From contig NZ_JYKA01000005.1 in NCBI RefSeq assembly GCF_001676875.1, positions 124,001 through 188,000 of the forward strand: a stretch of 64,000 nt of DNA, given 5' to 3'. Shown piece by piece: positions 6,649 to 41,599 of the stretch. This DNA is from Chromobacterium subtsugae. Its GTDB lineage: Bacteria > Pseudomonadota > Gammaproteobacteria > Burkholderiales > Chromobacteriaceae. Within the stretch, counting starts at the first letter, position 1. Every line of letters begins with the position of its first letter. The notes beneath the pieces are model-generated. The model saw only the letters and a list, made by a program, of their open reading frames with translations, ran no database searches and was not told the origin of the DNA. The position numbers and the translations under genes are program-made.

Positions 6649-6690
6649 CCGCCCGGCGCGCCGCGCCGGCTTACCCTGGATGGAGCCCTG

Positions 6691-8736: not shown

Positions 8737-8752
8737 TAGAGGAGGCAAGCTT

Positions 8753-14840: not shown

Positions 14841-14841
14841 G

Positions 14842-18261
<3,420 letters not shown>

Positions 18262-22846: not shown

Positions 22847-23069
22847 GGCCAGGGTGCTGGCGGTGCTGGGCGCCAGCCTGGGGGCGGAGGTGGGCCGGAT
22901 CCAGCCCGCGTCGCGGCTGGTGGACGATTTGTGCGCCGATTCGCTGGAGCTGCTCGACATGGTGATGATGCTGAACGACGAGTTCGGCATCGAGATCGGC
23001 GTCGAGGACATCGTCGGCATCCGCACCGTCGCCGATGTCGAGGCCGCGGTGGCGCGCCGCCTAGCCTAG
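22830..23069 (+). CDS. iacP: Acyl carrier protein IacP of the T3SS locus
   Basis: 79-residue acyl carrier protein with the phosphopantetheine site D37-S38-L39-E40 (CADSLELLD). In Salmonella IacP sits at the end of the sip operon and affects effector secretion and virulence. The start is GTG 22830 inside the end of sipA, preceded by GGGAG. The stop overlaps the 3' end of the convergent sensor kinase gene by 9 bases. Length fits IacP (82). Confidence 0.9.
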   Translation: MPRAIEARVLAVLGASLGAEVGRIQPASRLVDDLCADSLELLDMVMMLNDEFGIEIGVEDIVGIRTVADVEAAVARRLA

Positions 23070-25409: not shown

Positions 25410-26107
25410 TTTTCCTCCAGACGCTGCTGCAGCTGGAACAGCTCGTTGTCGCGCCGCAGGCCCAGCTTTTTCAACGCCGACTGCTTCTGGTTGCTGATGG
25501 TTTTGACGCTGCGCGAGAACTTGGCGGCGATATCGCTCACCGACAGTCCGTGCAGGCAGCAGCGCAGCACTTCGCGCTCGCGCGGCGACAGGTCGGGGTG
25601 GTCCAGCAGGGTGGGGCTTGCTCCTTGCGGCGCGTCCGATGCCTCCAGCCGGGCATGCAATTCGCGCGACATCTCCGGGCTGAGGTAGTCGCGCCCGTCC
25701 GCCAGCGCGCGGATCGCCGCCACCAGTTCGTCCAGCCCCTGCTCCTTGCCGATGAAACCATGGGCGCCGCCGCGCAGGGCCAGCGCCACCGTGGCGGGCG
25801 TGTAGTAGGCGGACATCACCAGCAGCCGCAGCCGCGGAAAGCGTATCCGCAGCGCGCGGATCAGGTTGAGGCCGTCGATGTCGTCGGGGCGCAGCGCGTA
25901 GTCGATCACCACCACGTCGGTTTCCGCTGCCAGCCCGCCGGCCAGCGCCTGCATCAGCTGGCTGCTGGCGGTGAAGCTGCCGGCCACGCGCAGGCCGGCC
26001 ACGCCGGCCAGGTGGCCGCTCAGGCCGTGCAGGATCATCAGGTGGTCGTCCAGCAAGGCGACGCGAATCGGGTGGGGCAGGGCGATGGAGATTTTGCTGT
26101 CGGACAT
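25406..26107 (-). CDS. NarL/FixJ-family response regulator (BvgA/EvgA-like)
   Basis: 233-residue two-domain regulator: receiver domain (about 10-130; DDH acidic pair, VVIDYA phospho-aspartate, K near 118) and a C-terminal LuxR-type helix-turn-helix (LSPREREVLRCCLHGLSVSD to SRSVKTISNQKQ). It is the cognate partner of the overlapping kinase. ATG 26107 has GGGAA with 6-base spacing; a GTG four codons upstream is possible. BvgA/EvgA-type regulators activate virulence or acid-response genes. Confidence 0.92.
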   Translation of the reverse strand: MSDSKISIALPHPIRVALLDDHLMILHGLSGHLAGVAGLRVAGSFTASSQLMQALAGGLAAETDVVVIDYALRPDDIDGLNLIRALRIRFPRLRLLVMSAYYTPATVALALRGGAHGFIGKEQGLDELVAAIRALADGRDYLSPEMSRELHARLEASDAPQGASPTLLDHPDLSPREREVLRCCLHGLSVSDIAAKFSRSVKTISNQKQSALKKLGLRRDNELFQLQQRLEEK

Positions 26108-26370
26108 GGCGTTTCCCACGGATGCTCGCCGCAGGGCCGGGCGCGGCCCCGCCGCTCTTTATTGTTGATTATGCATGCCGCCGGAGAAAGGGCGGCATGG
26201 CTGTTTTTGTCACGGCGAGCGCGCGTAAGCGCATTCCCCCTGCAATGATTCTACCCGGCGGGGGAGCGGAGCTACAGGCTTATGTCGATGCCGACAATGA
26301 TTTATGCTTTTGATTTTATTTTTGTTTCTTTTGAATGCCAAAGGCCTTTTGCCTGACCGGCCAGGCGTAG

Positions 26371-29001
26371 CTATTCTTCGCAAAGCGCCTGCAAAGACGA
26401 CAGCTCTCCTTGCCTGACCAATTGGCGCAGCCGCTCGATGAAATCCTGGCAGCGCAGGTTGTCCTGGGCAATGTGTTCGGCCCAATCCAGCAGATCCGTC
26501 ATGGCGCCAAGGCTAATCAGCCGGCGGGCTTCTTCCAGCTGGCTGGCATCCGGCCGCTGGGCATGGCTAGCGTCGGGCGGCGTCTCGGCGAAAGGTGGGC
26601 CGCCTAGTTGCAACAAGCTGGCCAAAGTATTGCGCAGTTCCGCCAGGTTGATCGGTTTGAGCAGGCTGGCGTCGTAGCTCTGCGGCCCTATCGGTTGCGG
26701 CAGCGCGGAAATGGCCACCACCGGCACGCCGGGCAGCCGTTGGCGCGCTTCGGCCAGTACCGCCAGTCCGTTGGCGCCGGGCATCATGTGATCGGTCAGT
26801 ATCAAATCGGGCGAGGAGCTCAGTCGCTGCATTTTCCGGATCAGTTCCAAGCCATTTTCCGAAGCGTCCACGGCAAAACCCTGGCCCGTCAGCTCATCGG
26901 CCAGCAAGCGTCGGATGTCGGGCGTATCTTCCGCCAGCCAGACCGTTTTGCCTTTTCCGTCTATCTGCGGCAGCACGCCCAGCGCATCCGGCCTGCAATA
27001 GCTGTCCATGTCCGCCTCGGACAAGGAGGGCGCCGTCAGCGTGATCTTGACCGCGGTGCCGGCCCCCGGCGCGCTGTCGATCTGCAGAGCGCCGCCCATG
27101 CGCTCCACCCATTGCTTGACGATGGACAGGCCAAGGCCGATGCCGGGCTGGGAGCGCGCCTGGCTCAGCCGCAGGAACGGTTCGAAAATGCGCCGCTGGT
27201 CCTCAACGGCAATGCCGCAGCCCGAGTCCTTCACCGTAAGCGACAGCTTGCCAGGCTGCCCGGCAAGATGCCGACGGTAATCGACGGCGAGAATGATAAG
27301 GCCCGACTGGGTAAACTTATTGGCATTGTCCAGAAGATTGCCCAATAGCTGGCGCACGCGCTTGCCATCCAGCTCCAACACCGGGGGCAACTCCGCGCCC
27401 GCCTCCAGCAGGAAACGGTTGCCCTTTTTCATCGAGAGGCTCTCGTGTTCCTGCGCAATCGCTTGAAGCAGCGCATGGATGTAAACCGGCTCTTTCTTCA
27501 CCGCGTTAGGCGAGGCACCGGCCGCGTAGTCGATCAGATCATTGATCATTTGCAGCATATGGGTGGCGCTGCGGCGGATGATGCCGCCGCGCTCGGCATC
27601 GCTGTGGCCGCCGGCCTGAATCAGGTCGGCAAAGCCGATGATGGACGTGAGCGGCGTGCGCAGATCATGGCTGACGCGGGCCAGAAAGTCCGATTTGGCG
27701 CGGTTGGCTTCGCCGGCGGCGATCAAGGCGCCCTGCAACTCCCGCGTGCGCTCGTCCACTGCGTCCTGCAGACGCTCCTGCTCTTTTAAACGAGCATCCA
27801 GCAAGGCATCCTGAGCTTGCTGCTTTTCCAGCCGCAACTGCCGTTGGCGGCGAATGTTGACGGCCAGCAGCAGCAGGATGATGGACAGATTGCCCCAGAT
27901 GATTTCCGCCCCGCCAATCATGGATTCGGACAGCAGGCCAAACCCCACGGCCATTTTCAGAATGGCGCGGCTGCTGTACAGGCAGAAGGCCAGGAAAAAC
28001 AGCCTGGCCTCGCGCGAACCTTGCCGCCATCGGTGCAGGCAACTGCCAAAGATCAAAATCAGGCAGGGCACCAACAACCAGTTCAAGGCATAAATGAACA
28101 TGCTGTAGTCGCCAAAGGCAGTGCCCGCGGCGCAGACCGCCAGCCCGGACATGGATGCTCGGTATAGCCAGCGCCAGAGCGCGATGCCGCCGGCTTCGAT
28201 GAAGCGCATCATCAAGGCAAGCACAAACGCCACGACCAGGCAGGGCAGCACGCCAGTCATGCGTAAAACCGCATCGCCGCCGCCTTGCATCAGGTAGTAA
28301 TAGTGATATCCCTGGAAGGAAAGATCGGCCATTAAGACGCAAAACGCCATGCCCGCCAGCAGCAGCGAAATCCGGTCCCGACGCGCCAGACCCATGGCCA
28401 GCGTGTACAGGGCAATGGTGAGCATGGAGCCGACCAGCAGCATTTCCATGGCCAGCTGTCGGTCCTGGTTGGCGCGATAGGCCGTTTGCGTCCATAGCTC
28501 AGGCGAAATGCTGATGATGGAACGACTGCGGATGCGCAGGACAAAGCGGATGCTTTCACCCGGCGCCAAGGTGATGGGAAACACCGACAGCAGCGCGGGA
28601 ACGGGGTGCTGGGCCAGCGGAATGCGGGTGCCCGCCAGGATGGCCTGCTCCACCTGAACATGATGCGGCGGCAGCCGATAAAAACGGATGTCCTCCAGCC
28701 GGGACGAGCCGACGGAAAGCCAGCGCGTCACCGGCTGGCTGCCGCTATTGTCAAGCTGCCCTTGCAGCCAATAAGTGTCGGAAGAGAAGCCGGCTGTCAG
28801 CCGTTTGAGCGTGGCGGCCTGCCAGTTGGGGCTCGCGAGCGCCTGGGTAAGCGTCAAGCGCTTGCCCGGCTCCCGCATGATGTCCAGTTTTTCATTTGGC
28901 TGGACATGCTCGGGCGCGCCGGCCAAATCGACAGGGACGGCCGCCCCGGCCCAGCCGCAGCAGGCCAGCAGCAGCCAGAGCAAGCAGGCGCGCCAGATCA
29001 T
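26371..29001 (-). CDS. 7TMR-DISM hybrid sensor histidine kinase
   Basis: 876-residue membrane kinase. It has a signal sequence (1-20), an extracellular 7TMR-DISMED2-type beta-sandwich (about 25-165, a possible carbohydrate- or small-ligand-binding domain), seven membrane helices (about 185-385), a coiled coil, HisKA with SHDLRTPL, HATPase (LLDNANKFT, GIGLGLSIV) and a receiver domain with ILTDHMMPG. A 90-residue helical tail follows without a clear Hpt histidine. Its ATG overlaps the stop of the regulator gene 28998-29801, its evident partner. Confidence 0.9.
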   Translation of the reverse strand: MIWRACLLWLLLACCGWAGAAVPVDLAGAPEHVQPNEKLDIMREPGKRLTLTQALASPNWQAATLKRLTAGFSSDTYWLQGQLDNSGSQPVTRWLSVGSSRLEDIRFYRLPPHHVQVEQAILAGTRIPLAQHPVPALLSVFPITLAPGESIRFVLRIRSRSIISISPELWTQTAYRANQDRQLAMEMLLVGSMLTIALYTLAMGLARRDRISLLLAGMAFCVLMADLSFQGYHYYYLMQGGGDAVLRMTGVLPCLVVAFVLALMMRFIEAGGIALWRWLYRASMSGLAVCAAGTAFGDYSMFIYALNWLLVPCLILIFGSCLHRWRQGSREARLFFLAFCLYSSRAILKMAVGFGLLSESMIGGAEIIWGNLSIILLLLAVNIRRQRQLRLEKQQAQDALLDARLKEQERLQDAVDERTRELQGALIAAGEANRAKSDFLARVSHDLRTPLTSIIGFADLIQAGGHSDAERGGIIRRSATHMLQMINDLIDYAAGASPNAVKKEPVYIHALLQAIAQEHESLSMKKGNRFLLEAGAELPPVLELDGKRVRQLLGNLLDNANKFTQSGLIILAVDYRRHLAGQPGKLSLTVKDSGCGIAVEDQRRIFEPFLRLSQARSQPGIGLGLSIVKQWVERMGGALQIDSAPGAGTAVKITLTAPSLSEADMDSYCRPDALGVLPQIDGKGKTVWLAEDTPDIRRLLADELTGQGFAVDASENGLELIRKMQRLSSSPDLILTDHMMPGANGLAVLAEARQRLPGVPVVAISALPQPIGPQSYDASLLKPINLAELRNTLASLLQLGGPPFAETPPDASHAQRPDASQLEEARRLISLGAMTDLLDWAEHIAQDNLRCQDFIERLRQLVRQGELSSLQALCEE

Positions 29002-29801
29002 GCGCCCGCATCTCCGGCATGGCGCAGGCTGGTAGGCGGGCAGCCGAACCTGTCTTTGAACGCGGTGGAAAAATTGGCCGGGTTGCCATAGCCGGTGGCC
29101 TGCGCGATCGACTGCACCGGCAGGTCGGTTTCCACCAGCAAGCGCCGCGCCTCCTTCATCCGGGCCTCGCGCAGGAAATCGAACACCGTCATGCCCGCGC
29201 AGCTGCGAAAGGCCTGGTTCAGCCGCCGGGTGTTGGTGCCCACCGCCTGCGCCAAGCCGGCCAGCTCCGGCGTGACATCCAGCGCCGCCAGCAGCAACTT
29301 GCGAGCGGAGCGGTACAGCACCCCGTCCAGTCCGCCCGCCTTGGGTTCTTTGCTTTTATCTGCCGGCGCGGCCGGCGGCTGCGAGCAAGGCGGGGTCATC
29401 CGCAGATGGATGCACAAGCGCATCCGGACTTCCTCGAAATCAAAAGGCTTGGTGACGTAGTCCACCGCGCCGGCGGCCAAGCCTTCCACCCGTTCCTTGG
29501 GCAGTGCGGACGCGGTGAGAAACAGCAGCGGAATGGTGGAGGTTTGCTGATTGGCTTTCAGCAACCGGCAGGCGGTCAGCCCGTCGCATCGCGGCATGGA
29601 GATATCCATCAGGATCACATCCGGCTGCACTGCCTGCGCTTTGTGATAGCCATCCCGGCCATCCTCGCCGATGTAAAGGCGGCAACCGTGCCTTGACAAA
29701 AAATCCATCAGCAGCATGCGGTCCTGCGCATTGTCGTCGACGATCAGGACGCGCAGGCCACGAAGGCCTGCGTCGGGAGGTGCAGAAGCGATCTGATTCA
29801 T
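28998..29801 (-). CDS. Response regulator with receiver domain and AraC-type DNA-binding domain
   Basis: 267 residues: a receiver domain (about 14-130; VDDNAQD, VILMDISMP, TKPFD) joined to an AraC-type double helix-turn-helix (about 175-262; AGMTVFDFLREARMKEARRL, YGNPANFSTAFKDRFG). REC-AraC fusions are much rarer than NarL or OmpR types. It is transcribed divergently from the oxidase cluster starting at 30316, with 514 bases between, so control of that cluster is plausible but unproven. Confidence 0.9.
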   Translation of the reverse strand: MNQIASAPPDAGLRGLRVLIVDDNAQDRMLLMDFLSRHGCRLYIGEDGRDGYHKAQAVQPDVILMDISMPRCDGLTACRLLKANQQTSTIPLLFLTASALPKERVEGLAAGAVDYVTKPFDFEEVRMRLCIHLRMTPPCSQPPAAPADKSKEPKAGGLDGVLYRSARKLLLAALDVTPELAGLAQAVGTNTRRLNQAFRSCAGMTVFDFLREARMKEARRLLVETDLPVQSIAQATGYGNPANFSTAFKDRFGCPPTSLRHAGDAGA

Positions 29802-30315
29802 ACTTATTACTATGACATAGCTAGGCTGTGTGCGCCTAATTTAAAATGACAAATGAATTGTCTTTTGTTGGCGCAAGGAGAAATTAATATCCTTGCGGCA
29901 AATCTTTCCAGCCCTTGTGCAAAAGCGGCGTCTTCTGGCTTGGCTATGACTGGCATAGCATGTGATTGCATTGAAATGTTAAGCGCCATGCTTTGGCGTC
30001 TGGCGAAAATAAAACTGCGAAAGCCAGCATTGCCAAATTCAAGTCATGGCAAGTTGCATATCGCAGTGGACTGGCGGCAAGCGCATCCATGCCTGAATGG
30101 ATGGTAGGGCTGCTTGGATGTATAGGCGCACCGAAAATGCAGAAGGGTGTGCCTGCAAGGCATGAGGTGATTTTCTCGGCAGATGGGATCGAAGTAGATC
30201 CGCGCCTGATTGTATGGATTGAGTTCCACGGTTTGAGTATTTCTCACTTACTCTCTTTGCAGCTTGCTGGGTAGGCCGGCTGCGATCGTATTCTACGCAT
30301 TCATGGAGACATCCA
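29802..30315. promoter_or_regulatory. Divergent intergenic region between the REC-AraC system and the oxidase cluster
   Basis: 514 bases without a credible gene; short open frames here have no ribosome binding site and unlikely composition. It is much more AT-rich than the flanking kinase genes. A dyad at 29844-29866 (GACAA, 5 bases, TTGTC, extended by A/T pairs with one mismatch) could be a regulator site. GGAGAC at 30305-30310 is the ribosome binding site of the next gene. Promoters for both directions must lie here, but none could be fixed. Confidence 0.6.
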
Positions 30316-31734
30316 ATGAAGATTTTCTCCTTGCGCACCAAGGCGTGGCTGGGCTTGGCGATTGGCGGCGCCGCGTTGTTGAGCGGTGTGATCGGGGCCG
30401 AGCAGGCGTATTCGCCCGAAAATAGCGCGGTGGCGGTGGCAGGCAAGGCCGCAAATTCCTGTTTGCCTCAAGAGGGATGGTTTCCCCATCGGCAGACGCT
30501 GGAGCCAAACTCCGGACAGTTCGCTGCCGACGCCAGCAATTGCGCCTTCCATCAATGGTCATGGCAAATGTTTCTGTGGCTGACGCAGGCGCTGCCAGAC
30601 CCAGATCATCAGGGGCAGACTCTGCCGCGTTTCCTTACCTTTCCGGACCCCCGTATCCTGCGAGGCAAGTCCCAGTCATCGGCCGACAGCTTCCTGCCGG
30701 CGCTGAACTTGAAGGATGACAGGCCGCTAGACGAATACCTGCAAGCGGGGCCGGATGGCATGCTGGTCGACCAGAATGGCCGGCTTGTTTACTACTCGAT
30801 GTATCTGAATGATGTTTTCGCCAACTTCGTCAAAGAGCAGGGCCTGAACAGCGCGGAACGCATCCGCGATTTCAATCCGGGCATTAACTATCCGGTAGGA
30901 ACATTGACCTTGAAGGCGGCTTGGAAGGTGCTGTCAAGCGAGGAACAGAAACGCAATGACGTATCCCACAAGTTTTATACGCGAACGGCGGAGGTATATC
31001 CGCTTAAGAAGCGCGGGAAGGGATTCGAATTAGACCGAACTTACCCTCAAGAGGTTGTATTGGCCTTGGTTGGCTTACATGTTGTCGGCACCACGCGGCA
31101 TCACGAAGAAATGATCTGGGCTTCCTTCGAGCATGTCGACAACGCGCCGGATGTCGATGCCGGAGCGATACAAGACCCCAAAACGCCGGTTTCGGACCGG
31201 GACTGGAGTTTTTACGCCAAGAACACGCCGCTTTCCGCTTGCAATCAGAACCTGGCGTCCAGCGGCAAGTTGGAGCTGGATGAGACCCGCCAGACATTCA
31301 CTCCCGTCACGCAGGTGTGCCGGATGTATCCGTACGGCAGCGGTCCGGACAAGCAGCCAGCCAACGCCGCCAATATCAAGGCGCTGAATACCGCGGTGCG
31401 CAATAAGCTCGAGGGGCCGTGGAACAATTATTTCGAAGTCGGGGCCATCTGGTTCGATACCCAGAAGGGTAAGCCGCTGCAAGCAAATTGCAACTTCCAG
31501 CCCGGCGCCAACCAGTGCGGGGTGGTGCTGGCCGGATCCACGAGGTTGTCCAACGCTGCCATCGAAACGTTCACCCAGTCGCAGAGCAGCATGGACAACT
31601 GTTTTGCCTGCCATCAGACCATGCCGCATTACGGCGGACCGGGGCAACAAACCCTGCCTGGGAAGAACCTTAGCATCAGCCACATCATGAACAATCTGTA
31701 TTTCGACCTGCAATCGTCGAAGAAGTCGAACTAA
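30316..31734 (+). CDS. Secreted monohaem cytochrome c-like protein of unknown family
   Basis: 472 residues with an N-terminal Sec-type signal (about 1-30) and a single haem c attachment motif C429-F-A-C-H433 near the C-terminus; M436 or a nearby His could be the distal ligand. The large N-terminal part (30-420) is not recognised. Because the c-type motif needs periplasmic haem attachment, the protein should act in the periplasm or be anchored there. It is the first gene of the oxidase cluster; its stop codon lies inside the ribosome binding site of the LodA-like gene, so the two are cotranscribed. Electron transfer from one of the neighbouring oxidases is a reasonable guess. Confidence 0.75.
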   Translation: MKIFSLRTKAWLGLAIGGAALLSGVIGAEQAYSPENSAVAVAGKAANSCLPQEGWFPHRQTLEPNSGQFAADASNCAFHQWSWQMFLWLTQALPDPDHQGQTLPRFLTFPDPRILRGKSQSSADSFLPALNLKDDRPLDEYLQAGPDGMLVDQNGRLVYYSMYLNDVFANFVKEQGLNSAERIRDFNPGINYPVGTLTLKAAWKVLSSEEQKRNDVSHKFYTRTAEVYPLKKRGKGFELDRTYPQEVVLALVGLHVVGTTRHHEEMIWASFEHVDNAPDVDAGAIQDPKTPVSDRDWSFYAKNTPLSACNQNLASSGKLELDETRQTFTPVTQVCRMYPYGSGPDKQPANAANIKALNTAVRNKLEGPWNNYFEVGAIWFDTQKGKPLQANCNFQPGANQCGVVLAGSTRLSNAAIETFTQSQSSMDNCFACHQTMPHYGGPGQQTLPGKNLSISHIMNNLYFDLQSSKKSN

Positions 31735-31747
31735 GGAGGATGACTTG

Positions 31748-33883
31748 ATGAGCGATTACATTCTGCGGGTGCACCCGGCCATTAATATCGCGCGCGTGGG
31801 GAGCAGCGATGAGTTCTACATTGCGCCAGAAACACCTGCTGGCGAAAGCCTGCCGGATAGCGATCTATTGGGTGGTTTGCCTATCAAGGCCGGCACGGAA
31901 AATACGCCGATCGACGAAAGCGATTTTCGCGACGCGCAAGGGTTGGTCAAGCGGCAGGCGGCGCGTTTTCGCATCTTCGCCTATCTAAAGGGCGAGCATC
32001 TGAATCAGTATCCGATGGGTCCGCAGGCTCAGCCGGTGGAAGTGGTGCTGGGTGCCCGGCTAGGCGCCAAAATAGTGAAGGACATCATTTGGACCGTGCA
32101 TGTGGCGAACAAGAAGCTCAACAACTTCGCCATCGGGAGCGATGGGCTGGATGGCTATGACGATCCAGCCAGCGTGCCGCTGCGCAATGGCTATTATCCC
32201 AATCTGCCGCCCAACTTCCCATTGCTGCCGACGACGAATGGCTCGCCGTATTGGCGCGAAATTCTGAGCAACGCCAAGCGTTGCATGGATTTGGTGATCG
32301 ATCCTGGCCCGCGCAGCATCAGCGCCTTTCATGATCAAGGCAAAACCAAGGCCTTTTCGAAGCGTGAACGCGCCTGTTTTGCCGATGGCAAGGGCAATAT
32401 CCAGTTTTTGGATTACCCGCAACATTTTCCCGATGATGCCCACCCGTATCTGGAGCAGCCCTTGGGGCCGATCGCCTCCCTGGGGGAGTTGCGAGTCGAT
32501 GCCCAAGGGCGCTTGCTCGTCACCGGGGGTTTTGGCCATACGGCGGGGGTAAAGCTATCGGCAACGGGGCTGCCACCAAGCCTGGCCAACTCAACCGAGA
32601 ATGGACTGTGGTTTGACGATACGTCAGATGGCCCGGTCAATGCGGTGGTGGTGTTCGATGATGGAAGCTGCGAGGCCCATGGTGCCTGGGTGGTGACTGG
32701 CGATCCCGGCTATGCGCCGCAAATCCGCAATGTCGTGTCCGCCTGGGACGATATTTTCGACATGTGGGTGCGTGAACTCGATTTGATGCCGAGCCTCTAC
32801 CGTGGTAACGCATTCAACCATGGCGAGTATCAGCCCTGTTTCCGCCATCAGGTGCAGCCTATTTTCCGGGCGGCCATGTTGCAGCGTTGGGGCACCAATT
32901 TACCGAACCATGTTGTGAATGCCCATGATGGGGTGGGCGCCATTCAGCCCACGACGGATCCCGGCGCGATCATTCAGGACTTGGAAAAACTGATCCGCAA
33001 TCCGGAAGGCTCGCCCCAGGAAATGCAAACGGGCCGGCCGCTGATGCCCTTGTCTTTGGGCGACGCTCGCAAGAGCTTCCTGACAGTGACCCGCAGCCAA
33101 TATTTCTTTTTGCAGTGTTGGCACAAACAGCAGTTTTCGGCCGAAGACGCGATGCCCTTGAGCGTGGGAGAGAAACTGGACTATGCCGCGCTGGCCAACT
33201 GTTTGGGCGGCCGTTACAGCCCGGGCATCGAGGTGTCTTTCCCGGTGCGGGACCGCAATCTGTACATCCAGAATTGGCGCGAGCGCGACTGCGGCCCCTT
33301 CCGTATCAATCAGGCTCGGATCGATTACGCCAACATCGACAGCGGCGAGCCTGTGCTGCGTTGCGGCTATGTGCCGCGGCAAATCGGAGCGGTGGAGCCG
33401 GGCGATCTTTCCAAGTTCATGTCGGTGCCTTGGCATACCGATTACAACTCCTGCGCAGTCCACCTGCCCAAGCCGAATCCCATCAATGTAGATGGCAACG
33501 GCACTCCATACCCTAACAATGTGCTGTTCTGGTCGTGGCCGGCGCAGCGCCCGGTGCAGGTGTTTCCCAAGTCCAGTTGCGATTACGACCCGGCAACGGG
33601 AACCTGGAAATTGGGCAATCAGGTGTTTTCCATCCGCGGAGTCGGAACCGAGACGGAATACCCGGCCAGAGCGGGCAGCTTCCGAGAGCATGCAGATTAT
33701 ATGCGGCAATGGAACAAGACCGGCTTTGTGATCCAAGGCTTGCAGATTCCATCCGCGCAGGGAGGCAGCTATGGCGGCAAGCTGTTCCTGGAGGTGTCCA
33801 GCCAGTGGGGCCCGGAGGAGGGACCGCCAGTGCAGCCGTTTCCTACGGCTTCCGTGCCGCCTGAGCCTGAGGGGAAGGTTTGA
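31748..33883 (+). CDS. LodA-like quinoprotein amino-acid oxidase (CTQ cofactor family)
   Basis: 711-residue member of the LodA/GoxA family (L-lysine epsilon-oxidase, glycine oxidase), which use a cysteine tryptophylquinone cofactor made from their own Cys and Trp. The family opening ILRVHPAINIARVGSSDEF is at residues 4-22. The likely cofactor residues are C485 (motif NCLGGRYSPGIE) and W562 (motif VPWHTDYNSC), followed by the conserved WSWPAQRPVQVF. No signal peptide. ATG 31748 follows AAGGAGG. Members oxidise free amino acids to aldehyde or keto products with NH3 and H2O2, and some act as antimicrobials. Which amino acid is used cannot be read from the sequence. Confidence 0.88.
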   Translation: MSDYILRVHPAINIARVGSSDEFYIAPETPAGESLPDSDLLGGLPIKAGTENTPIDESDFRDAQGLVKRQAARFRIFAYLKGEHLNQYPMGPQAQPVEVVLGARLGAKIVKDIIWTVHVANKKLNNFAIGSDGLDGYDDPASVPLRNGYYPNLPPNFPLLPTTNGSPYWREILSNAKRCMDLVIDPGPRSISAFHDQGKTKAFSKRERACFADGKGNIQFLDYPQHFPDDAHPYLEQPLGPIASLGELRVDAQGRLLVTGGFGHTAGVKLSATGLPPSLANSTENGLWFDDTSDGPVNAVVVFDDGSCEAHGAWVVTGDPGYAPQIRNVVSAWDDIFDMWVRELDLMPSLYRGNAFNHGEYQPCFRHQVQPIFRAAMLQRWGTNLPNHVVNAHDGVGAIQPTTDPGAIIQDLEKLIRNPEGSPQEMQTGRPLMPLSLGDARKSFLTVTRSQYFFLQCWHKQQFSAEDAMPLSVGEKLDYAALANCLGGRYSPGIEVSFPVRDRNLYIQNWRERDCGPFRINQARIDYANIDSGEPVLRCGYVPRQIGAVEPGDLSKFMSVPWHTDYNSCAVHLPKPNPINVDGNGTPYPNNVLFWSWPAQRPVQVFPKSSCDYDPATGTWKLGNQVFSIRGVGTETEYPARAGSFREHADYMRQWNKTGFVIQGLQIPSAQGGSYGGKLFLEVSSQWGPEEGPPVQPFPTASVPPEPEGKV

Positions 33884-35067
33884 CGACGCGGAGCCTGGCG
33901 CTGCAAACATGCGATGTGGCGGAAGCGGAAGCCGTCCGTGTCGCGGTCATCGGCGCAGGCGTGGCAGGCTGCGCCGCTTCCCTCAGCTTGCTGGCTTGCG
34001 GCGTGGATGGGGTGCTGATGCTGGACAGCGACTCAGGCGGGAGGGCGGATCGGGTAGGAGAGTGCCTGCCGCCTTCGTGCGCGCCGATTTTGCAAAGCCT
34101 GGGTGTGTGGAATGACTTTCTGGCCCAGGGGCACTTGCCCAGTGTGGGCAGCGCTGCGTGCTGGGGGCGAGACGGCTGGGGCTTCAATGATTTCCTGATT
34201 GATCCGCACCGTTGCGGCTGGCATTTGGATCGCCAGTCTTTCGACGCGAGCATGTTGGCGGCGGCACAACAGCGCGGTGCCCGCTTATGGAAGGGGTGCC
34301 GCTTGCGCGGCTTGGCGCGGCGCGACACCGGTGGCTGGCTGCTGGATTTGGAGAGGGAAGGCCAGGCGCTCCTGCAACGGGCGGACTTTGTGCTGGATGC
34401 CAGCGGGGCCGCCGCCGTCGTGGCGAGACGCCTTGGCGTGATGCGCAACGAAATAGACTGCCTGAACGTGTCATATGCCTATTTGCACTGTGATGATGCC
34501 ATGGCCTTTCCCGCGCGCTCCTGGCTGGAGGCGGTGGAAAATGGCTGGTGGTACGCGGCTGGCGTGCCGGGCGGCAGGATAGTCGCGGCTTATGCGACGG
34601 ACCGCAAAAATCCCGCAAAGCCGCAAGGCCCGGTGGCGTGGATGGCGGCATTGCAAAGCACCCGCCATCTATGGCCGGTCATGCTGCGCGCGCGTCCCGC
34701 CTCCATGCCGGGCGCGGTGCGGGTGGCGGCCGCGCCCAGCGCCATTCTGAGCAATGTGGCGGGCCGGGACTGGTTGGCCGTGGGCGATGCGGCGTGCAGC
34801 TATGACCCATTGACGGCGCATGGCATTTTGAAAGCCTTGCAAGACGGAGAGGCTGCGGGGCGGGCGGTGGCGAATGATTTGGGTGGAAATCCCCAGGCCA
34901 TGCACGATTACCAGAATGGCATTTTCACCCGCTTTTCCGACTACTTGCGCTTGCGAAACCGTTTGTACAGCGAAGAGGCGCGCTGGCGGCATATGGATTT
35001 CTGGGCGCGGCCCTTGACGCAAGCGGCGCGGGGCGCTGGCGGCGGACCGGGCGCGGCTGTGGATTGA
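33880..35067 (+). CDS. LodB-like FAD-dependent oxidoreductase (quinone-cofactor maturation partner)
   Basis: 395-residue flavoprotein of the tryptophan-halogenase/geranylgeranyl-reductase-like group. The FAD motif GAGVAGCAASLSL is near residues 26-38 and the second flavin motif VGDAACSYDPLTAHGI is near 300. In Marinomonas, LodB is needed to form the CTQ cofactor in LodA; the gene overlaps the LodA-like stop codon, which fits the same role. The start is uncertain: TTG 33880 overlaps the upstream stop, and GTG 33916 is a possible alternative. Confidence 0.85.
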   Translation: MTTRSLALQTCDVAEAEAVRVAVIGAGVAGCAASLSLLACGVDGVLMLDSDSGGRADRVGECLPPSCAPILQSLGVWNDFLAQGHLPSVGSAACWGRDGWGFNDFLIDPHRCGWHLDRQSFDASMLAAAQQRGARLWKGCRLRGLARRDTGGWLLDLEREGQALLQRADFVLDASGAAAVVARRLGVMRNEIDCLNVSYAYLHCDDAMAFPARSWLEAVENGWWYAAGVPGGRIVAAYATDRKNPAKPQGPVAWMAALQSTRHLWPVMLRARPASMPGAVRVAAAPSAILSNVAGRDWLAVGDAACSYDPLTAHGILKALQDGEAAGRAVANDLGGNPQAMHDYQNGIFTRFSDYLRLRNRLYSEEARWRHMDFWARPLTQAARGAGGGPGAAVD

Positions 35068-35159
35068 CACCAATGGCGCCTCTGATCGGATGGAGCGCCT
35101 ATTGATGGTCGACGAGTTTGCGCTGCGCCGTTGGGCGCAGCTTTTCAGCGGAGGAAAAT

Positions 35160-37345
35160 ATGCAGCACATCGCAAGCAAACGGGTTATCACTCGACTGGC
35201 CGCCGCCGCTCAAGGCGTGCTCATGTTGGGATGGGCCGTGCTGGCGGCAGCGGAACCGCTGCCTGATCCCACGGCAATCGCGGATCCGCCACCGCTGCAC
35301 CCCCGCGATCTATCCGAGCCTAAGCCTAAAAAGGGGACGCTGCAGCTGCAGAACTTCATGTCCCTCCCAGCTTTGTCGAAATCGGAGTCTGGCGTATTTG
35401 ACAAGCCGGAATTCCTGACTCCTGATACTGTGGATCTGGATTTGGAAGTTGCGATGCTGAGTGGAAAGATACGCAATCCATCGGCAGACAAAGAGGGAGA
35501 GGCGCATTTTGACCGCGTCCTGCTGCGCGGCTACCGCCCCTGGTGCGATCCTGGAGAGAATGGAAAGCCATGCCGGGCATCACGGGTCACCAAGTCATTC
35601 ATCGCGCCTTTGATCCAGGCCCATCCGGGTCAAACGGTTCGAATCACGCTGCACAATGATCTGCCGCCTGATCCGAGTTGCGTTTCTCAAGGGGGGAGCG
35701 CGAATAAGCCGCACTGCTTCAATGGCACCAATTTGCACACTCACGGCTTATGGATCAATCCGGCCGGCAATAGCGACAATGTGCTGCTCGCCATTCACCC
35801 CGGGGTGGCTTTTCAGTACGAGTACAACATCCCGTTGGAGCATCCGGCTGGAACCTACTGGTATCACACGCATCTGCATGGATCAACGGCGCTGCAAGTG
35901 TCCAGCGGCATGGCAGGTGCTTTAATCATTCGCGGCAACAGGCAGCCTCAACTGGATGGAAATCAGGCCAATTCCAGTCAGAAGAATTCACATGTCCATG
36001 GAGATCTAGACACGTTGTTGGTGTCAAGAGATAAAGATCAGTTCCAGGAGCATACCTTTGTCTTTCAGCAAATCCAATATGCTTGCCGTGGAAAAGATAG
36101 AAAAATAAAACCAAAAACGATGAGGAAGGCGGGCCTTATCGTTGTGATGATGGCGATATTGGGCAGGTTGATGGTTACGATCTGTTCGGTCCTGGTCGGT
36201 GGGAAAAGTCTGGCCGTTATACCAGTATAAACGGAGTGGTGATGGGCAAACTCCAGAATGCGAAGGTAGGTAAGGTGCAGCGCTGGAGAATGATACATGG
36301 CGGTGTGAGAGATACCATTGCTTTGGAAATTCGGCGCCGCGAACCCATTTCCAATGAAAGCGCGCAGAGTATTTCTGGACTTACGGCGGAACAGACTCAG
36401 GACTATGTCAATAAAGAGTGCACCGGCGAGCCCATCCCCTTCACTTTGGTGGCCGCGGATGGTTTGACTATGGCGCAAGCCATGCAGAAGAAGCGGCTAG
36501 TTTTCCAGCCTGGGTACCGCTGGGACGCTTTGATGGTTTTTCCGCAAGCTGGTGATTATTGCCTAATTAACAAAGTAGGCCGCTCCAATATTGACCTGGT
36601 TCAGCCTTACACAAGACTGCTGGGCATGATCCATGTCAATGCAGCAAATATGCCAGTTGTGCCCGATGACATCGATGGCAGCATCAAGCGCCATCTGCAA
36701 AATCTGTTGATCAAAGCTGCGCAAGATAACTACCGCTCCGCCGTAGCAAAGTTGGTGGTGGCGGATCTGCGGAATGATATGAAGCTAACCCGCTTTGTGC
36801 CGCATGCGGATATCCAGGACTCGGAATTGACTGGCCAGCAGCGACTGGCATTTAACATAGACACCCAGTCTGTGAAAGGCCAGTCATTCTATCAGATTGA
36901 TGGCAAGCCCTACGATGGCGGAAGAATAGACCGTACTCTCCCATTGGGTGGCGTGGACGAATGGACGCTGACGTCGGACTTTGCCAGCCATCCCTTTCAC
37001 ATTCATGTCAATCCATTCCAAATAGTCAAAATTATCAATCCGAAAGGTCAAGATATTAGCGGGCCAATGCCACAAGCTGATGACGACGACGATCAGTATC
37101 ATGGCATGAAAGGGATGTGGAAAGACACGCTGTGGATCAAGAGCCTGTTTGACGGCACTTCCGGGGGTGAAAAGGATGCGGCGGCGGGAAGATACACCTT
37201 TATAGTGCGCACCCGTTACCAGCGTTATGTCGGAGATTTTGTGCTGCATTGCCACATTTTGGACCATGAGGATCAGGGCATGATGCAGAATGTGCGCATC
37301 GTTTTGCCGGATGCCCAAGGAAATCTGACAGCAGGCCATCATTAG
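35160..37345 (+). pseudogene. Multicopper oxidase gene split by a one-base frameshift
   Basis: All four copper-binding signatures of a multicopper oxidase are present, but in two frames. The 5' part (35160-36230 if read straight) has a signal-like N-terminus, N-L-H193-T-H195-G and YWYH236-T-H238-LHG. The 3' part (readable from the A-run at 36113 to 37345) has HPFHIHVN and the type 1/type 3 motif HCHILDHEDQGMM. Moving to the -1 frame within AAAAA at 36113-36117 restores a continuous protein of about 728 residues with the family's FGPGRWEKSGRYTSINGVV. One missing A in the run explains it. It may be a real mutation, a sequencing error in a homopolymer, or slippage. Such oxidases couple substrate or Cu(I) oxidation to O2 reduction; the substrate is unknown. 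Local base composition is AT-rich. Confidence 0.85.
36113..36117 (+). other. Frameshift site in the multicopper oxidase gene (A5 run)
   Basis: The 0 frame reads CCA AAA ACG and runs into a stop at 36228-36230; the -1 frame reads AAA AAC GAT GAG and continues as conserved oxidase sequence, while upstream that frame is closed by a TAA near 36105. The crossing point must therefore lie in this A/T-rich stretch. Confidence 0.85.
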
Positions 37346-37422
37346 CAATGGACTGAGAGCCGTCTCAATTAATTTTCTAAGTGATTATCCTGAAGCATCA
37401 GCAAGCAACTTAAGGAAAATAT

Positions 37423-39168
37423 ATGAGCAATTTATATCTGGACACTGCCATTGTCGGTGGTGGCGCTTCTGGCGCGTATAGCGCTTGGCGTTTGCAGCAA
37501 GCTTATGGCGAGGAGCGTAAAATCGCCTTGTTTGAATACAGCAACCGCATTGGCGGACGACTATATACGGTGACTATGCCAGGCCTGCCCAATGTCAAGG
37601 CAGAAGTGGGCGGCATGCGTTATATTCCGGATCAGCACTATATGGTTGCCAATCTCATCGGCCACCTTGGTCTTGCCACCAAGCCCTTTCCGATGGGGGA
37701 GCCTGCGCCGGTCGGGTCCAGCTGCAATATATTTTATTTGCGCGGCAAGCACTTCCGTCTGCACGAATTGTCCGATCCGGAGAAGGTCCCTTACAACCTT
37801 TCCTGGTCGGAGCGCGGCCTTGGGCCGACGAATCTGCAAGTGCAAGTGATGAATTATATTTACCCCAATATGCAGAATCTGTCACTGTGTCAGCAGATGC
37901 AGGTTAAGGCGTATGGCAAGCACCTCTGGCAGTACGGTTTCTGGGATCTGATGTTCCGCGCTCTGTCCAATGAAGGCTATCAATTCATGAAGGATGCGGG
38001 CGGATATGATGCCAATGTGGCGAATGCCAATGCGGTGACTCAATTGCCGGCGACGGAATATAGCGACAGCACGATATTTCTGACCTTGAAGGATGGCTAC
38101 GATCAGCTGCCGATTCGCTTGGCGCAGGCATTCAATCATGAACTCCCGGGCCTGGCTCCCAAGGGAGAGCGGATTTACATGAATCATTGCCTCACCGAGA
38201 TTCATGAAAACACTGGCGAATATCGCTACAAGCTGGTTTTCCGTCCGACCAAGGTGCAGCAGCATGAGGGCGGGCTGCGTTCTTTGCTTGATCATGGCGC
38301 CGACCCCATCGTTGTCTATGCCAAGCACATCGTGCTTGCGATGCCGCGCCGCTCGCTTGAACTGATCAAGTCTGATTTCTTTTTTAGCGATCCTTGGCTG
38401 AAAGAAAATCTGAAGTCGGTGCTGATCCAACCGGCGTTCAAGCTATTCCTGGCCTACGAGCGCCCCTGGTGGCGTTCGCTCGGCCTGGTGGCTGGCCGCT
38501 CGGTCACGGACCTGCCCATCCGCCAAGTCTATTACTTCGGCACGGAAAGCGAGCAGGACGGCGGGCAGCCTTGGCTGAACTCCTTGCTGATGGCGTCATA
38601 CAACGACATCAGCACGGTGCCGTTTTGGAAGGGGCTGGAAGCGGGGCCTGCGTTCAACGGTTATCGTCCGGACTGCATCGAAGCAGACAGCAGCAATGTT
38701 GTTCCGCAGATGGAACATGTGGCTACCGAGGAAATGGTATTTGTCGCGAACAAGCAAGTGGCGGAAGTGCATGCCCAGCAGCAGATTCCGAGCCCGTATT
38801 CCGCCGTGTACCATGACTGGAGCGACGACCCCTATGGCGGCGGTTGGCATGAGTGGAAGGCGAATTACCGGCTGGACCAGATCATGTGGCAAATGCTCAA
38901 GCCGGTTGATGCGCACAATATTTTCATCGTCGGCGAGGCGTATTCCATAGGCCAAGGTTGGGTTGAAGGGGCGCTGTGCACCGCAGAGCAGATGCTGGAA
39001 AAGCATTTCCAGCTGAAGCGGCCAGGCTGGCTGAAAGAAGGCTATGAGCTGATGCCTGTGCCGGAGGGTGGCTGCGGCGAGTTGTGCGGCTGCATCCCGG
39101 CCAGCGCCATGGGGTCGACGCTTGAGGCTATCACGCCGAACTGTCTCAAGTGCGCGCAGGAGGGCTAA
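37423..39168 (+). CDS. FAD-dependent amine/L-amino-acid oxidase with cysteine-rich C-terminus
   Basis: 581-residue flavin amine oxidase family protein. The dinucleotide motif GGGASG is at residues 12-17, NRIGGRLYT and EVGGMRYI follow, and the C-terminal flavin motif GEAYSIGQGWVEGAL is near 505-520. No signal peptide. The C-terminal tail carries five cysteines (C551, C555, C557, C574, C577) that are not part of the usual fold and could bind metal or form disulfides. ATG 37423 follows AAGGA. L-amino-acid oxidases release the 2-oxo acid, NH3 and H2O2; the next gene encodes an enzyme that would decarboxylate that 2-oxo acid. Too long to be the violacein enzyme VioA (about 420). Confidence 0.85.
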   Translation: MSNLYLDTAIVGGGASGAYSAWRLQQAYGEERKIALFEYSNRIGGRLYTVTMPGLPNVKAEVGGMRYIPDQHYMVANLIGHLGLATKPFPMGEPAPVGSSCNIFYLRGKHFRLHELSDPEKVPYNLSWSERGLGPTNLQVQVMNYIYPNMQNLSLCQQMQVKAYGKHLWQYGFWDLMFRALSNEGYQFMKDAGGYDANVANANAVTQLPATEYSDSTIFLTLKDGYDQLPIRLAQAFNHELPGLAPKGERIYMNHCLTEIHENTGEYRYKLVFRPTKVQQHEGGLRSLLDHGADPIVVYAKHIVLAMPRRSLELIKSDFFFSDPWLKENLKSVLIQPAFKLFLAYERPWWRSLGLVAGRSVTDLPIRQVYYFGTESEQDGGQPWLNSLLMASYNDISTVPFWKGLEAGPAFNGYRPDCIEADSSNVVPQMEHVATEEMVFVANKQVAEVHAQQQIPSPYSAVYHDWSDDPYGGGWHEWKANYRLDQIMWQMLKPVDAHNIFIVGEAYSIGQGWVEGALCTAEQMLEKHFQLKRPGWLKEGYELMPVPEGGCGELCGCIPASAMGSTLEAITPNCLKCAQEG

Positions 39169-39171
39169 GCG

Positions 39172-40857
39172 ATGACGGCATCGACTCCCGCCTACACGGT
39201 TTCAAACTACATACTGGATCGCTTGCGGCAGCTTGGCGTCCAGCATCTGTTCGAAGTTCCCGGCGACTACGCATCGATTTTCTTGAACACGCTCGATGAA
39301 TGTCCCGCCATCGAGCGCATCCCCAACATCAATGAATCGGGCGTCGGTTATGCAAGCGATGGCTACGGGCGTTTCAAGGGCGCGGCGGCGTGCAGCGTTC
39401 AATATGGCGTCGGCACCTTCTCGATACTGAATTGTTTTGCCGGCGGTTTTGTCGAGCGCGTCCCCATGGCGCTCATCGGCCCTAGCCCCAGCACGCAAAA
39501 TCGCGAGCTTGCCCGTACTGAGGGGATACTGTTCCACCACAGTACCGGCAATCTGAACGCCGATATGCGGGTTATGGAAAATGTGACCGCTGCGGCCGTC
39601 GCCATCCATGATGGCGCGAGCGCGCCAGCGTTGATCGACGAGGCGCTGACGGCGATGCTCACTCACCGTCGTCCAGTGTATATCGAGGTGTGGCAGGATA
39701 TCTTCGGCGTGGAATGCGCGCGGCCCAGAGGCGAGTTGCGAGCGGTCGAGACCGCAAGCGAGCCTGCTGCGTTGCAAGCCATGCTGGATCTGGCGTGGCA
39801 AACCATAAGCGATGCCGCGCTTCCGGTGTTTTGGCTGGGCGTTGAAATCCAACGCTATGGCCTGCAAGAGCTGGCGCAGCAGCTGGTCGATGCGAGCGGT
39901 CTGTTTTTCACGACCACCAGTCTTGGCAAAACCGTGCTAGACGAAAGCCAGGCTTCCTTTATCGGCACCTATGCCGGGCCAGCCTCCCCCGCGTTGACCC
40001 GCGAGGTGATGGGCAGCGCCGACTGCGTGGTGGCGCTAGGCGCCATCATCACCGACGATTACCTCGGCATCATGGCGCAGGACTATGCCAGGATGGTGGA
40101 GATCAACGATGAAGCCGCGCGCATCGGCTGCGGCCATTATCAAGGCGTGTATCTGCGCGATTTCATGCAAGGCTTACTGGCGCGATTTCAGCGGCGGGCG
40201 AGCGCGCGGCGCTATCGCCTGCCGCAAGTCAGCCCCGATCCGCAGCCCAGCTTGCTGCCGACTGACGGGCTCACCTATGACCGCTTTTATCATGTGCTCG
40301 GGGATTGGCTGATTCAGGAGGGCCATATCCGGCAGGCCAAGCTGATTCTGGGCGAGAGCACCAGCTTGTATGTTTTCGGCAATCTGTTTGGCATGCCGCG
40401 GGATGCCTTTGTCGCGCAGGCCGCGTGGGGCTCGCTTGGCCATGAGACGGGCTGCGCGCTGGGCGTCGAACTCGCCACCGGCCAGCGCCCCTTGGTGGTT
40501 GCCGGCGATGGCGGCTTCATGATGATTTGCCAGGAAATCTCCAGCCTGGTTCGCCAGCGCTCCAATGCCGTCGTGTTTGTCATGTCGAATGCCGGCTACG
40601 CCATCGAGCAAGCTTTCGTGAATCTCAATGCCTTCACGCCGCAAGACAACTACGCGGCTTTTGATTTGCTGCCGAATTGGGATTACCTCGCATTGGCAAA
40701 GGCATTCGGCGCGCGCGGGCATGTTGTTGAAACTGTCGATCAGCTGCGCAAGCTGCTCAAGCAGTTGGAGCATATGGACGGGGTGCCCAATATCGTGCAA
40801 GTGAAGATACCGTTGAAGGATCTGCCGCCGCAGCTGCGGCGTTTGGCAAGCGGTTGA
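39172..40857 (+). CDS. Thiamine-diphosphate-dependent 2-oxo-acid decarboxylase (indolepyruvate/pyruvate decarboxylase type)
   Basis: 561-residue enzyme of the PDC/IPDC/KdcA family. Catalytic residues are intact: D32 in VPGDY, E55 in NINESG, the H122-H123 pair in LFHHSTG, the ThDP motif GDGGFMM to MSNAGY, and the following E in GYAIEQ. It removes CO2 from a 2-oxo acid to give an aldehyde. Start ATG 39172 has AGGAGGG, 3 bases after the oxidase stop. Paired with an L-amino-acid oxidase it forms an oxidase-decarboxylase route from amino acid to aldehyde (Ehrlich-like). Preferred substrate (aromatic, branched or pyruvate) is not evident. Confidence 0.9.
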   Translation: MTASTPAYTVSNYILDRLRQLGVQHLFEVPGDYASIFLNTLDECPAIERIPNINESGVGYASDGYGRFKGAAACSVQYGVGTFSILNCFAGGFVERVPMALIGPSPSTQNRELARTEGILFHHSTGNLNADMRVMENVTAAAVAIHDGASAPALIDEALTAMLTHRRPVYIEVWQDIFGVECARPRGELRAVETASEPAALQAMLDLAWQTISDAALPVFWLGVEIQRYGLQELAQQLVDASGLFFTTTSLGKTVLDESQASFIGTYAGPASPALTREVMGSADCVVALGAIITDDYLGIMAQDYARMVEINDEAARIGCGHYQGVYLRDFMQGLLARFQRRASARRYRLPQVSPDPQPSLLPTDGLTYDRFYHVLGDWLIQEGHIRQAKLILGESTSLYVFGNLFGMPRDAFVAQAAWGSLGHETGCALGVELATGQRPLVVAGDGGFMMICQEISSLVRQRSNAVVFVMSNAGYAIEQAFVNLNAFTPQDNYAAFDLLPNWDYLALAKAFGARGHVVETVDQLRKLLKQLEHMDGVPNIVQVKIPLKDLPPQLRRLASG

Positions 40858-41599
40858 AGTGCTAGTTAGGCATAGGTTTGTTCTGGCTTGTGTGGGCGTT
40901 GAGGGGGGCGAGGAGCTTGCCTGCGAGCGCAAGCGGGACGATATATCGCAAAAAACAGCGCGGCGCCTTGCCGGGGAGTCCGGGGGGAGAGCCGCTTGGC
41001 GCGCGGGGCGGCCTGGCAGCCGGGCGCGTGGGCGTCCGCCGCAGATTGTTCGTGCGGGCTGGGGCAATGGTCGCGCGATTCGGCCCCGGCTTGTCGGCCC
41101 TGGGTGACGATAGGAGGGGCTTGCCGGGGCGTCGGCGCCAAGTTGACGGGGCGCAATGGCGCGCGTGTCGCAGTCAGCGTTCGACGCTGTGGCAATGCGG
41201 CATTCCGGTCCCGCGCGGCGGTAAAACGCTTCGTCCGACTGCGTTCTATTCCTTCTTGCTGGCGGCCGGAGGAATCGTAAACCATCCAGGCGGACTGGGT
41301 GGCCGGCATCGCCCGCATTCCTGGTTTTGCGGCGGGGAGCGGGGGCAGTCCAGGGCTTGTGTTGATGCGGTGGGGTAGGGGGGTGGAGCGAGGTGCGGAT
41401 TTTTGGCATGCGCCGAAAGCTTGCGGGGGGCGGTCGGTGTATTGGTTTGCTTGGTGGTAATCATGGAAAAACTTCCGATAAGTAAAATTATCGGAAAAAT
41501 ATAGAATAAATAGTAAATTAATAATGTAATACGTAATATATTTATCAATAGATTTTTGCTACACTCCACGCCAAGTTGCCCAAGGGCAGGGAGAGAACA
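40858..41599 (+). promoter_or_regulatory. Long intergenic region upstream of the KfrA-like gene
   Basis: The first 590 bases are GC-rich without a convincing gene (open frames there have Gly/Arg/Trp-rich low-quality translations and no ribosome binding sites), possibly decayed sequence. The last 150 bases (about 41450-41570) turn strongly AT-rich with a perfect palindrome (41473-41496) and A/T repeats such as TAATGTAATACGTAATATAT. TACACT near 41561-41566 may be a -10 box. GGGAGAG precedes the ATG at 41600. Confidence 0.6.
41473..41496. promoter_or_regulatory. Perfect palindrome upstream of the KfrA-like gene, candidate operator
   Basis: TTCCGATAA and TTATCGGAA form perfect 9-bp arms around GTAAAA. 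It lies about 105 bases before the ATG in an AT-rich region. KfrA proteins of plasmids bind repeated operators in their own promoters, so autoregulation is a reasonable idea. A T-poor 3' side argues against a terminator. Confidence 0.6.

Follow-up and report, generated by a model that had tools for sequence, protein, structure and literature searches.

Does a row of adjacent same-strand genes for a haem protein, three kinds of oxidase and a decarboxylase form one amino acid oxidation pathway, or does it bring together units that work separately? We addressed this question for positions 30316-40857 of a 64,000-nucleotide stretch of Chromobacterium subtsugae DNA (contig NZ_JYKA01000005.1, positions 124,001 to 188,000; hereafter the window), which belongs to a genome of 4.8 Mb. 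The initial annotation of this DNA had read the row as six genes of a single pathway or of a peroxide weapon. Our analysis indicates that the genes are probably part of about 15.4 kb of acquired DNA, an island made up of two independent modules, namely a two-component system with a haem protein, LodA and LodB (module 1) and an arginine oxidase-decarboxylase pair (module 2), and of one broken gene.

Gene content of the cluster

Homology and domain scans gave identities to seven ORFs (open reading frames), all on the + strand. The first (30316..31734) encodes P0001, a monohaem (CFACH) c-type protein of 472 aa with a signal-like N-terminal stretch by eye, which is therefore putatively exported. 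It is followed by a LodA-like cysteine tryptophylquinone (CTQ) protein of 712 aa (P0002; 31748..33883; LodA_N and LodA_C domains) and by a LodB-like flavoprotein of 395 aa (P0003; 33880..35067), the presumed LodA maturase, which matched the NCBIfam models LodB and GoxB with 1.2e-65 and 7.3e-65, respectively. A multicopper oxidase (MCO) gene is split into an N-terminal part (35118..36230, with an ATG at 35160; Cu-oxidase_3, 5.9e-14) and a C-terminal part in another frame (36236..37345; Cu-oxidase_2, 6.2e-16). The row ends with a flavin amino acid oxidase of the L-arginine oxidase type (P0006, 581 aa; 37423..39168) and a thiamine diphosphate (ThDP)-dependent 2-oxo-acid decarboxylase (P0007, 561 aa; 39172..40857) with TPP_enzyme N, M and C domains.

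Thus, the haem, LodA-like, LodB-like, flavin oxidase and ThDP decarboxylase genes are present on the same strand as described in the initial annotation. Of the six genes that it counted, the fourth, that of the MCO, is two ORFs in different frames and not one open gene. The exact gene set, whose conservation in related genomes the initial annotation had named as a test of its reading, was found complete in none of the 18 congeners and at none of 69 arginine-oxidase-type loci, some of which are on short contigs. One conserved operon of all six genes was therefore rejected within these genomes and loci, and the haem-LodA-LodB part behaves as a module of its own. Taken as a whole, the earlier interpretation is partly supported.

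The flavin oxidase and the decarboxylase form a conserved pair

A scan of a collection of species genomes with P0006 as the only query yielded 68 relatives (47-75% identical), which together with locus L084 made up 69 loci. The decarboxylase gene was situated directly downstream of the oxidase gene on the same strand in 69/69 loci, three of them seen in part (in L091 and L102 the decarboxylase runs off the contig end, and in L150 both genes match in part). This adjacency was not built into the sample, because the query contained no decarboxylase. Moreover, the distance matrices of the oxidases and the decarboxylases were correlated with r = 0.97, a value reached in none of the 2000 permutations (n = 67, comprising 66 loci and the window after the three partial loci had been dropped). 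The proposal of an aldehyde-forming decarboxylase that receives its substrate from the flavin oxidase is well supported by this adjacency and co-divergence, with L-arginine as the likely substrate.

P0006 is identical to the L-arginine oxidase PT-AROD at 333 of 551 chain positions (60%), and in the PDB search PT-AROD (8t8a/8jt7) was matched with 1.6e-221, compared to 5.7e-89 for the next kind of enzyme. The specificity residues Gln350 and Glu493 of PT-AROD correspond to Q336 and E477 of P0006, and by motif and alignment each of them is present in all 69 loci. Hence P0006 agrees with L-arginine oxidase (EC 1.4.3.25) both in its overall sequence and in its specificity residues, and it likely prefers L-arginine. 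Glu493 is named E486 in PMC10694123, as the native and construct numberings are offset by 7; sections of that paper describe E486 as modelled beside the guanidino group and report that the E486Q replacement shifts the activity to citrulline. According to sections of PMC11694665, the E493A replacement in PT-AROD did not lower the efficiency of arginine turnover and widened the substrate range, and Q350E decreased the arginine efficiency about twofold. These effects imply that the residues speak for selectivity and not for activity as such.

Two paralogous oxidases of the same genome carry E/A and R/S at the specificity positions, the E/A combination also occurring in an ancestral lysine oxidase that is described in part of PMC11694665. 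The E/A paralogue is located at L088 (G000:C76:120000-136000), where the oxidase lies around 7372-8964. An assignment to VioA, the tryptophan oxidase of the violacein route, was rejected, the score against NCBIfam NF053546 being 80.2 bits at a cut-off of 600.

In the control set of 22 fetches (19 distinct loci), a decarboxylase was present in 3/3 fetches (2 loci) that had the Glu and in 0/19 fetches (17 distinct loci) that lacked it, 4 of the latter spanning about 7 kb downstream and the others 0.4-1.5 kb. In the loci examined, the residue of E477 thus goes together with the decarboxylase.

By phylum or group, the 68 relatives belong to Pseudomonadota (52), Bacteroidota (7), Acidobacteriota (5), the PVC group (2) and Actinomycetota (2), and 12 of the 16 loci outside Pseudomonadota originate from metagenome bins. 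The pair most similar to that of the window comes from a bin of an uncultured Lewinella, at identities of 76% and 72%; L084, the sole pair detected within the order to which the window belongs, stands at 65% and 52%. These values fit transfer as a pair. Searches with the decarboxylase as the query gave less: among 369 genomes of the class only relatives of 25-34% were detected besides the window, which is uninformative on the pair. A decarboxylase-like match was present in 91 plasmid records, and among the 30 listed, two Pseudoalteromonas records have the oxidase adjoining (L169 was checked).

The genes around the pair were surveyed by crude picks that reached two genes upstream and three genes downstream. 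Among the neighbour families, the largest, found in 16/69 loci (L104, L105 and 14 others), comprises proteins of about 670 aa encoded after the decarboxylase; L105 showed a weak sub-cut-off TPR match and L104 none. The second family occurs in 9 other loci of the 69, and its L127 member is an FAD oxidase with FAD_binding_4 and berberine-like domains. No neighbour family was found in more than 16/69 pair loci; most neighbour clusters carry no annotation, and recurrent catabolic genes may be among them.

The decarboxylase has all three TPP domains, and its D, E and HH motifs, which we take to be catalytic, are mostly invariant across the loci. In the reaction sequence that we propose for module 2, the flavin oxidase would convert L-arginine and O2 to 2-ketoarginine, NH3 and H2O2. 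From 2-ketoarginine the ThDP decarboxylase would then release CO2 and form 4-guanidinobutyraldehyde.

The haem protein, LodA and LodB form a second unit

The LodA-like ORF opens at a TTG at 31745, from which its residues are numbered, and an ATG at 31748 is preceded by AGGAGG. Both LodA domains were recognised well above their cut-offs (LodA_N 6e-47, 160.8 bits at a cut-off of 26.3; LodA_C 9.8e-34, 116.7 bits at a cut-off of 25). The initial annotation was right about the expected cofactor residues of this protein: C570 aligns with C516 of LodA (numbering of chain 3weu), and C570, D566 and W598 are each conserved in 11/11 aligned LodA-like proteins. We take W598 to be the counterpart of LodA Trp581, on the basis of the motif, as the structure alignment ended before that residue. 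The lodA gene, which gives the sole LodA_N match in its genome, overlaps lodB by 4 bases, and the product of the latter is a LodB-type partner that reached 222 bits with the LodB model, under the equivalog cut-off of 400, and was also under the cut-off of GoxB. The LodA-like protein itself was rejected as the L-lysine 6-oxidase LodA proper (NCBIfam NF038172, 213.8 bits, cut-off 600) and as the glycine oxidase GoxA proper (NF038173, 151.4 bits, cut-off 750).

The triad of haem protein, LodA and LodB was found in only one of the 18 congeners, G014, with identities of 80%, 85% and 79%, respectively. There it adjoins the same two-component system that lies divergent to the cluster in the window, where a hybrid sensor histidine kinase with 7TMR-DISM, HisKA, HATPase and receiver domains (26371..29001, - strand) and a response regulator with an AraC-type DNA-binding domain (28998..29801, - strand) were identified with Pfam. 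The kinases are 77% and the response regulators 86% identical between the two genomes, and among the matches listed for the sensor kinase in the other 17 congeners there were only short ones. No MCO, arginine oxidase or decarboxylase was found within the 19.9 kb around the triad of G014, and the match of G014 to the right flank of the window cluster lies elsewhere in its chromosome.

Searches with LodA sequences as the sole queries revealed three more relatives of at least about 40% identity, on a Xanthomonas sacchari plasmid, on a Pseudoalteromonas xiamenensis plasmid and in G1132. In 5/5 loci of this subgroup, the window included, the haem protein is encoded directly upstream and LodB directly downstream of LodA; these loci had been found by the LodA query and not by the haem protein. 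At 18 other LodA-like loci (9 with at least 11 kb of sequence and 9 with flanks of about 1.5 kb around the match) no homologue of the haem protein was detected with four queries at E 1e-3. The arginine oxidase-decarboxylase pair was present in 0/4 of the other triad loci. Two LodA matches of 32% were obtained in Azospirillum. For one of them, on an Azospirillum brasilense plasmid (L242:1350-4939), an annotated ferritin-like gene replaces the haem gene directly upstream of LodA, and a divergent di-haem oxidoreductase gene lies beyond the ferritin-like gene; the record of the other carries no annotation.

In module 1, LodB would build the CTQ cofactor within the LodA-like enzyme, and the resulting quinoprotein would oxidise an amine or amino acid. 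The monohaem protein could be a dedicated accessory, most likely accepting electrons from LodA or handling H2O2. The divergent two-component system would control these genes, and it is likely the regulator of module 1.

Both oxidases could also exist for the sake of H2O2, as a peroxide weapon or a biofilm-dispersal device. Sections of PMC4417212 and PMC4699246 describe LodA relatives that act as antimicrobials or supply H2O2 during biofilm dispersal, which agrees with this possibility; however, the production of H2O2 needs no conserved decarboxylase, and the flavin oxidase has no obvious export signal (by eye only). We therefore consider a peroxide device unlikely.

The interrupted multicopper oxidase gene

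The MCO homology crosses frames: when compared with three congener homologues (uninterrupted proteins of 706-719 aa from G005, G013 and G002), it follows one frame up to about 36095-36110 and continues from 36110 in a different one. Motifs of the HxH type for copper ligands were found in both pieces, and the frame change may be a real mutation or an assembly error. The initial annotation had offered the MCO as an electron sink in one of its readings. This role is unlikely and was rejected because of the interruption and because neither the 69 arginine-pair loci (several of them short) nor the other four triad loci yielded a match to an MCO; the MCO is without a conserved link. The uninterrupted homologues are located at L158:8343-10496, L159:9066-11186 and L160:7509-9668 of the three congeners, and none of the other cluster genes is present within 19 kb around them. 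In our explanation the MCO would be an inactive or mis-sequenced passenger.

The MCO adjoins LodA, and this arrangement resembles the operon of LodA group ID (tyrosinase, MCO, LodA, a small gene and LodB), from which parts could have been lost; such an operon is present at locus L023 of G051, the group being that given in a section of PMC4417212. However, no tyrosinase was found among the cluster proteins, no small gene separates lodA from the overlapping lodB, and the window MCO is interrupted. It is also closer to the stand-alone MCOs of the congeners (55-58% identity) than to that of G051 (25-42%). The cluster was not assigned to group ID, and its origin from such an operon is highly improbable.

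The cluster lies in an island

In congener G006, the DNA matching the window up to 26070 (L163 to 11332) and that matching the window from 41468 (L163 from 11591) are separated by 258 bases, compared to about 15.4 kb in the window. This empty site delimits an island at 26071..41467. As the flanks nearly touch in G006, the block that includes the two-component system has been either gained or lost, at once or stepwise; the acquisition of the block is the direction that we favour. In congener G015 about 2.5 kb separates these flanks, and congener G008 has a match for the right flank only. The GC content of 30316-40857 is 0.577, compared to 0.664 for the remainder of the window.

The left flank of the island is a kinase-/regulator-like ORF pair (by eye; window 23061-26119), and the DNA is conserved there in G006 and G015. 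Further away, at 14067-15906, two ORFs resemble type III export apparatus proteins, by eye only.

One pathway or two modules

Several observations weigh against two independent modules or against the functions that we assign to their parts. As to the first point, LodA, LodB, oxidase and decarboxylase genes occur together in 2/69 pair loci, both from Rhodobacterales: L148 and L149, which represent Marivita and an uncultured Roseobacter. In these (L149:6383-9982 and L148:6167-9994) a long LodA-like gene ends 12 bases before the oxidase gene, LodB is divergent, and so is a large protein. A domain scan of L149 showed guanylate cyclase and AAA domains in the large protein and a fusion of LodA to PF14518, a haem-oxygenase-like iron redox domain. 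Because the two loci are alike, we counted them as one lineage; with the window included, LodA has thus been joined to the pair in two cases.

These unions are consistent with one integrated pathway in which the quinoprotein and the arginine pair work on the same flow, for example by both supplying aldehyde or peroxide, and so are the shared strand, the short gaps and the absence of any of the 17 terminator-like sites from the gaps 35068-35159 and 37346-37422. A promoter scan was uninformative (4 sites, compared to a mean of 6.6 in shuffles). However, the two loci with LodA beside the pair are mutually related, and their LodA is only 27% identical to P0002. Within the sequence examined, the triad stands without the pair in 4/4 other loci and the pair without LodA in 67/69. 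We consider one integrated pathway doubtful. There is a similarly small chance that the CTQ enzyme and its own exported monohaem protein form a dehydrogenase or peroxide-handling complex instead of a plain oxidase, and that LodA systems were joined at least twice to the arginine pair for the sake of a diffusible guanidino-aldehyde.

P0001-like genes were also found near the pair. In L138 such a gene is situated about 2.5 kb upstream, and on two Pseudoalteromonas megaplasmids 13-14 kb upstream; in the Chitinophagaceae bin to which L138 belongs, the 7 kb preceding the pair contain genes for two CxxCH proteins (L138:3561-5141 and 6093-7520). A wider pathway joining both modules stays alive at low odds.

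The haem-protein family complicates the picture of module 1. P0001 contains one CxxCH motif and matched no Pfam or NCBIfam family above threshold; neither the single sequence nor a four-row profile gave a useful PDB match for its fold, and its match to Cytochrome_P460 was weak (E 0.035) and confined to the surroundings of the CxxCH. Family matches were present in 14/398 genomes of the phylum, that of the window included, and in 17 stretches of 10-19 kb fetched around family members from the 13 other genomes no LodA or LodB was found. On two Rhizobium plasmids, where the family likewise occurs without LodA, a gene for a zinc metalloprotease is located a few genes away from the P0001 homologue. 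A LodA-only family was therefore rejected, and since the family is not confined to LodA, the haem protein of module 1 looks like a recruited partner. A different partner set of the P0001 family is seen at L058, where a single row of genes encodes two CxxCH proteins (7454-8746 and 12141-13391) and where the product of the adjacent gene (5642-7450) had no Pfam match.

As regards module 2, all the pair loci of Acidobacteriota, the PVC group and Actinomycetota are metagenome bins, in which mis-binning is possible. In addition, the decarboxylase scored below the cut-offs of both named models, with 264.9 bits for indolepyruvate decarboxylase (TIGR03393, cut-off 946) and 127.2 bits for 5-guanidino-2-oxopentanoate decarboxylase (NF005712, cut-off 500). 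For this reason its substrate is deduced from the oxidase partner, and the enzyme probably acts on 2-ketoarginine.

The scores would also suit a decarboxylase that acts on aromatic 2-oxo acids (indolepyruvate or phenylpyruvate) supplied by a broad oxidase and thereby gives auxin-like or aromatic aldehydes. The best NCBIfam score is the one for indolepyruvate decarboxylase, the top PDB match, 1ovm, is an enzyme of the same kind, and in Gluconacetobacter diazotrophicus the production of indole-3-acetic acid requires lao-cccA-ridA, a cluster of an amino acid oxidase gene with a cytochrome c gene, according to a section of PMC5053998. On the other hand, the arginine specificity residues are invariant in the 69 loci and differ in the paralogues of the same genome, and the relative activity of PT-AROD is 18% on Lys and 2% on Phe, with none detected on Trp (PMC11694665 section 17). 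We regard the aromatic route as quite improbable, and retain 2-ketoarginine as the probable substrate.

The genome also lacks a candidate for the degradation of the guanidino group. The sole match to the ureohydrolase family PF00491, to which guanidinobutyrase presumably belongs, passes the hutG cut-off, and no guanidinobutyrase was found in the genome. A whole arginine catabolic operon was thus rejected. As hutG is the only ureohydrolase match found, the aldehyde or its acid may be the end product. For a cyanobacterial enzyme, part of PMC2242806 describes that uncleared H2O2 converts 2-ketoarginine to 4-guanidinobutyrate non-enzymatically. With a closely linked decarboxylase, the products would be 4-guanidinobutyraldehyde and CO2 instead.

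Comparison with known systems

The enzyme kinds of both modules are already known. As a unit, however, the haem-LodA-LodB triad was not found described in the open-licence papers searched, and the same holds for the arginine pair. The initial annotation knew of no described system with the complete set. This is not contradicted by our results, because the set looks like a composite.

Module 1 shares with the lysine-epsilon-oxidase system LodA/LodB and with GoxA/GoxB both LodA domains, the CTQ residues and an adjacent LodB-type maturase, but it scores below both equivalog cut-offs and has an upstream monohaem protein. The main text of PMC4417212 does not contain the word 'cytochrome'. The recognition of a LodA subgroup that has a linked haem protein makes it possible to test whether LodA-type quinoproteins always pass their electrons straight to oxygen.

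Quinohemoprotein amine dehydrogenase is made up of a di-haem subunit and a CTQ subunit. The likeness to it consists in the combination of CTQ and a c-type haem, and P0003 matches the maturase QhpG with 5.8e-38, under the cut-off; the window, in contrast, has a LodA-type enzyme and a separate protein with one haem motif and without a family match. Membership was rejected, as P0001 has one CxxCH and no haem-domain family over threshold. In the lao-cccA-ridA cluster of G. diazotrophicus an amino acid oxidase gene lies beside a cytochrome c gene, and a role in electron transfer has been proposed; as described in sections of PMC5053998, it is without LodA, LodB and a decarboxylase, and we liken it to the window by description only.

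The closest known relative of module 2 is the L-arginine oxidase of Pseudomonas sp. TPU 7192 (EC 1.4.3.25; PDB 8JT7, 8T8A), with which P0006 shares the specificity residues and would share the activity. The main text of PMC10694123 contains the word 'decarboxylase' 0 times, and sections of PMC11694665 name no paired gene. The arginine oxidase/2-ketoarginine route of Pseudomonas putida, a biochemical description of which is cited in part of PMC2242806, begins with the same reactions that we predict here. It differs in that our genome has no guanidinobutyrase candidate and in that the window decarboxylase scores to the pyruvate/indolepyruvate branch and not to the 5-guanidino-2-oxopentanoate decarboxylase model. 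The arginine pair supplies a candidate gene for the reaction that follows arginine oxidation in this route, as a two-gene cassette carried by isolates of Pseudomonadota and Bacteroidota and by bins of three further groups. Both this cassette, which is widely shared, and the haem-LodA-LodB triad are useful, testable units.

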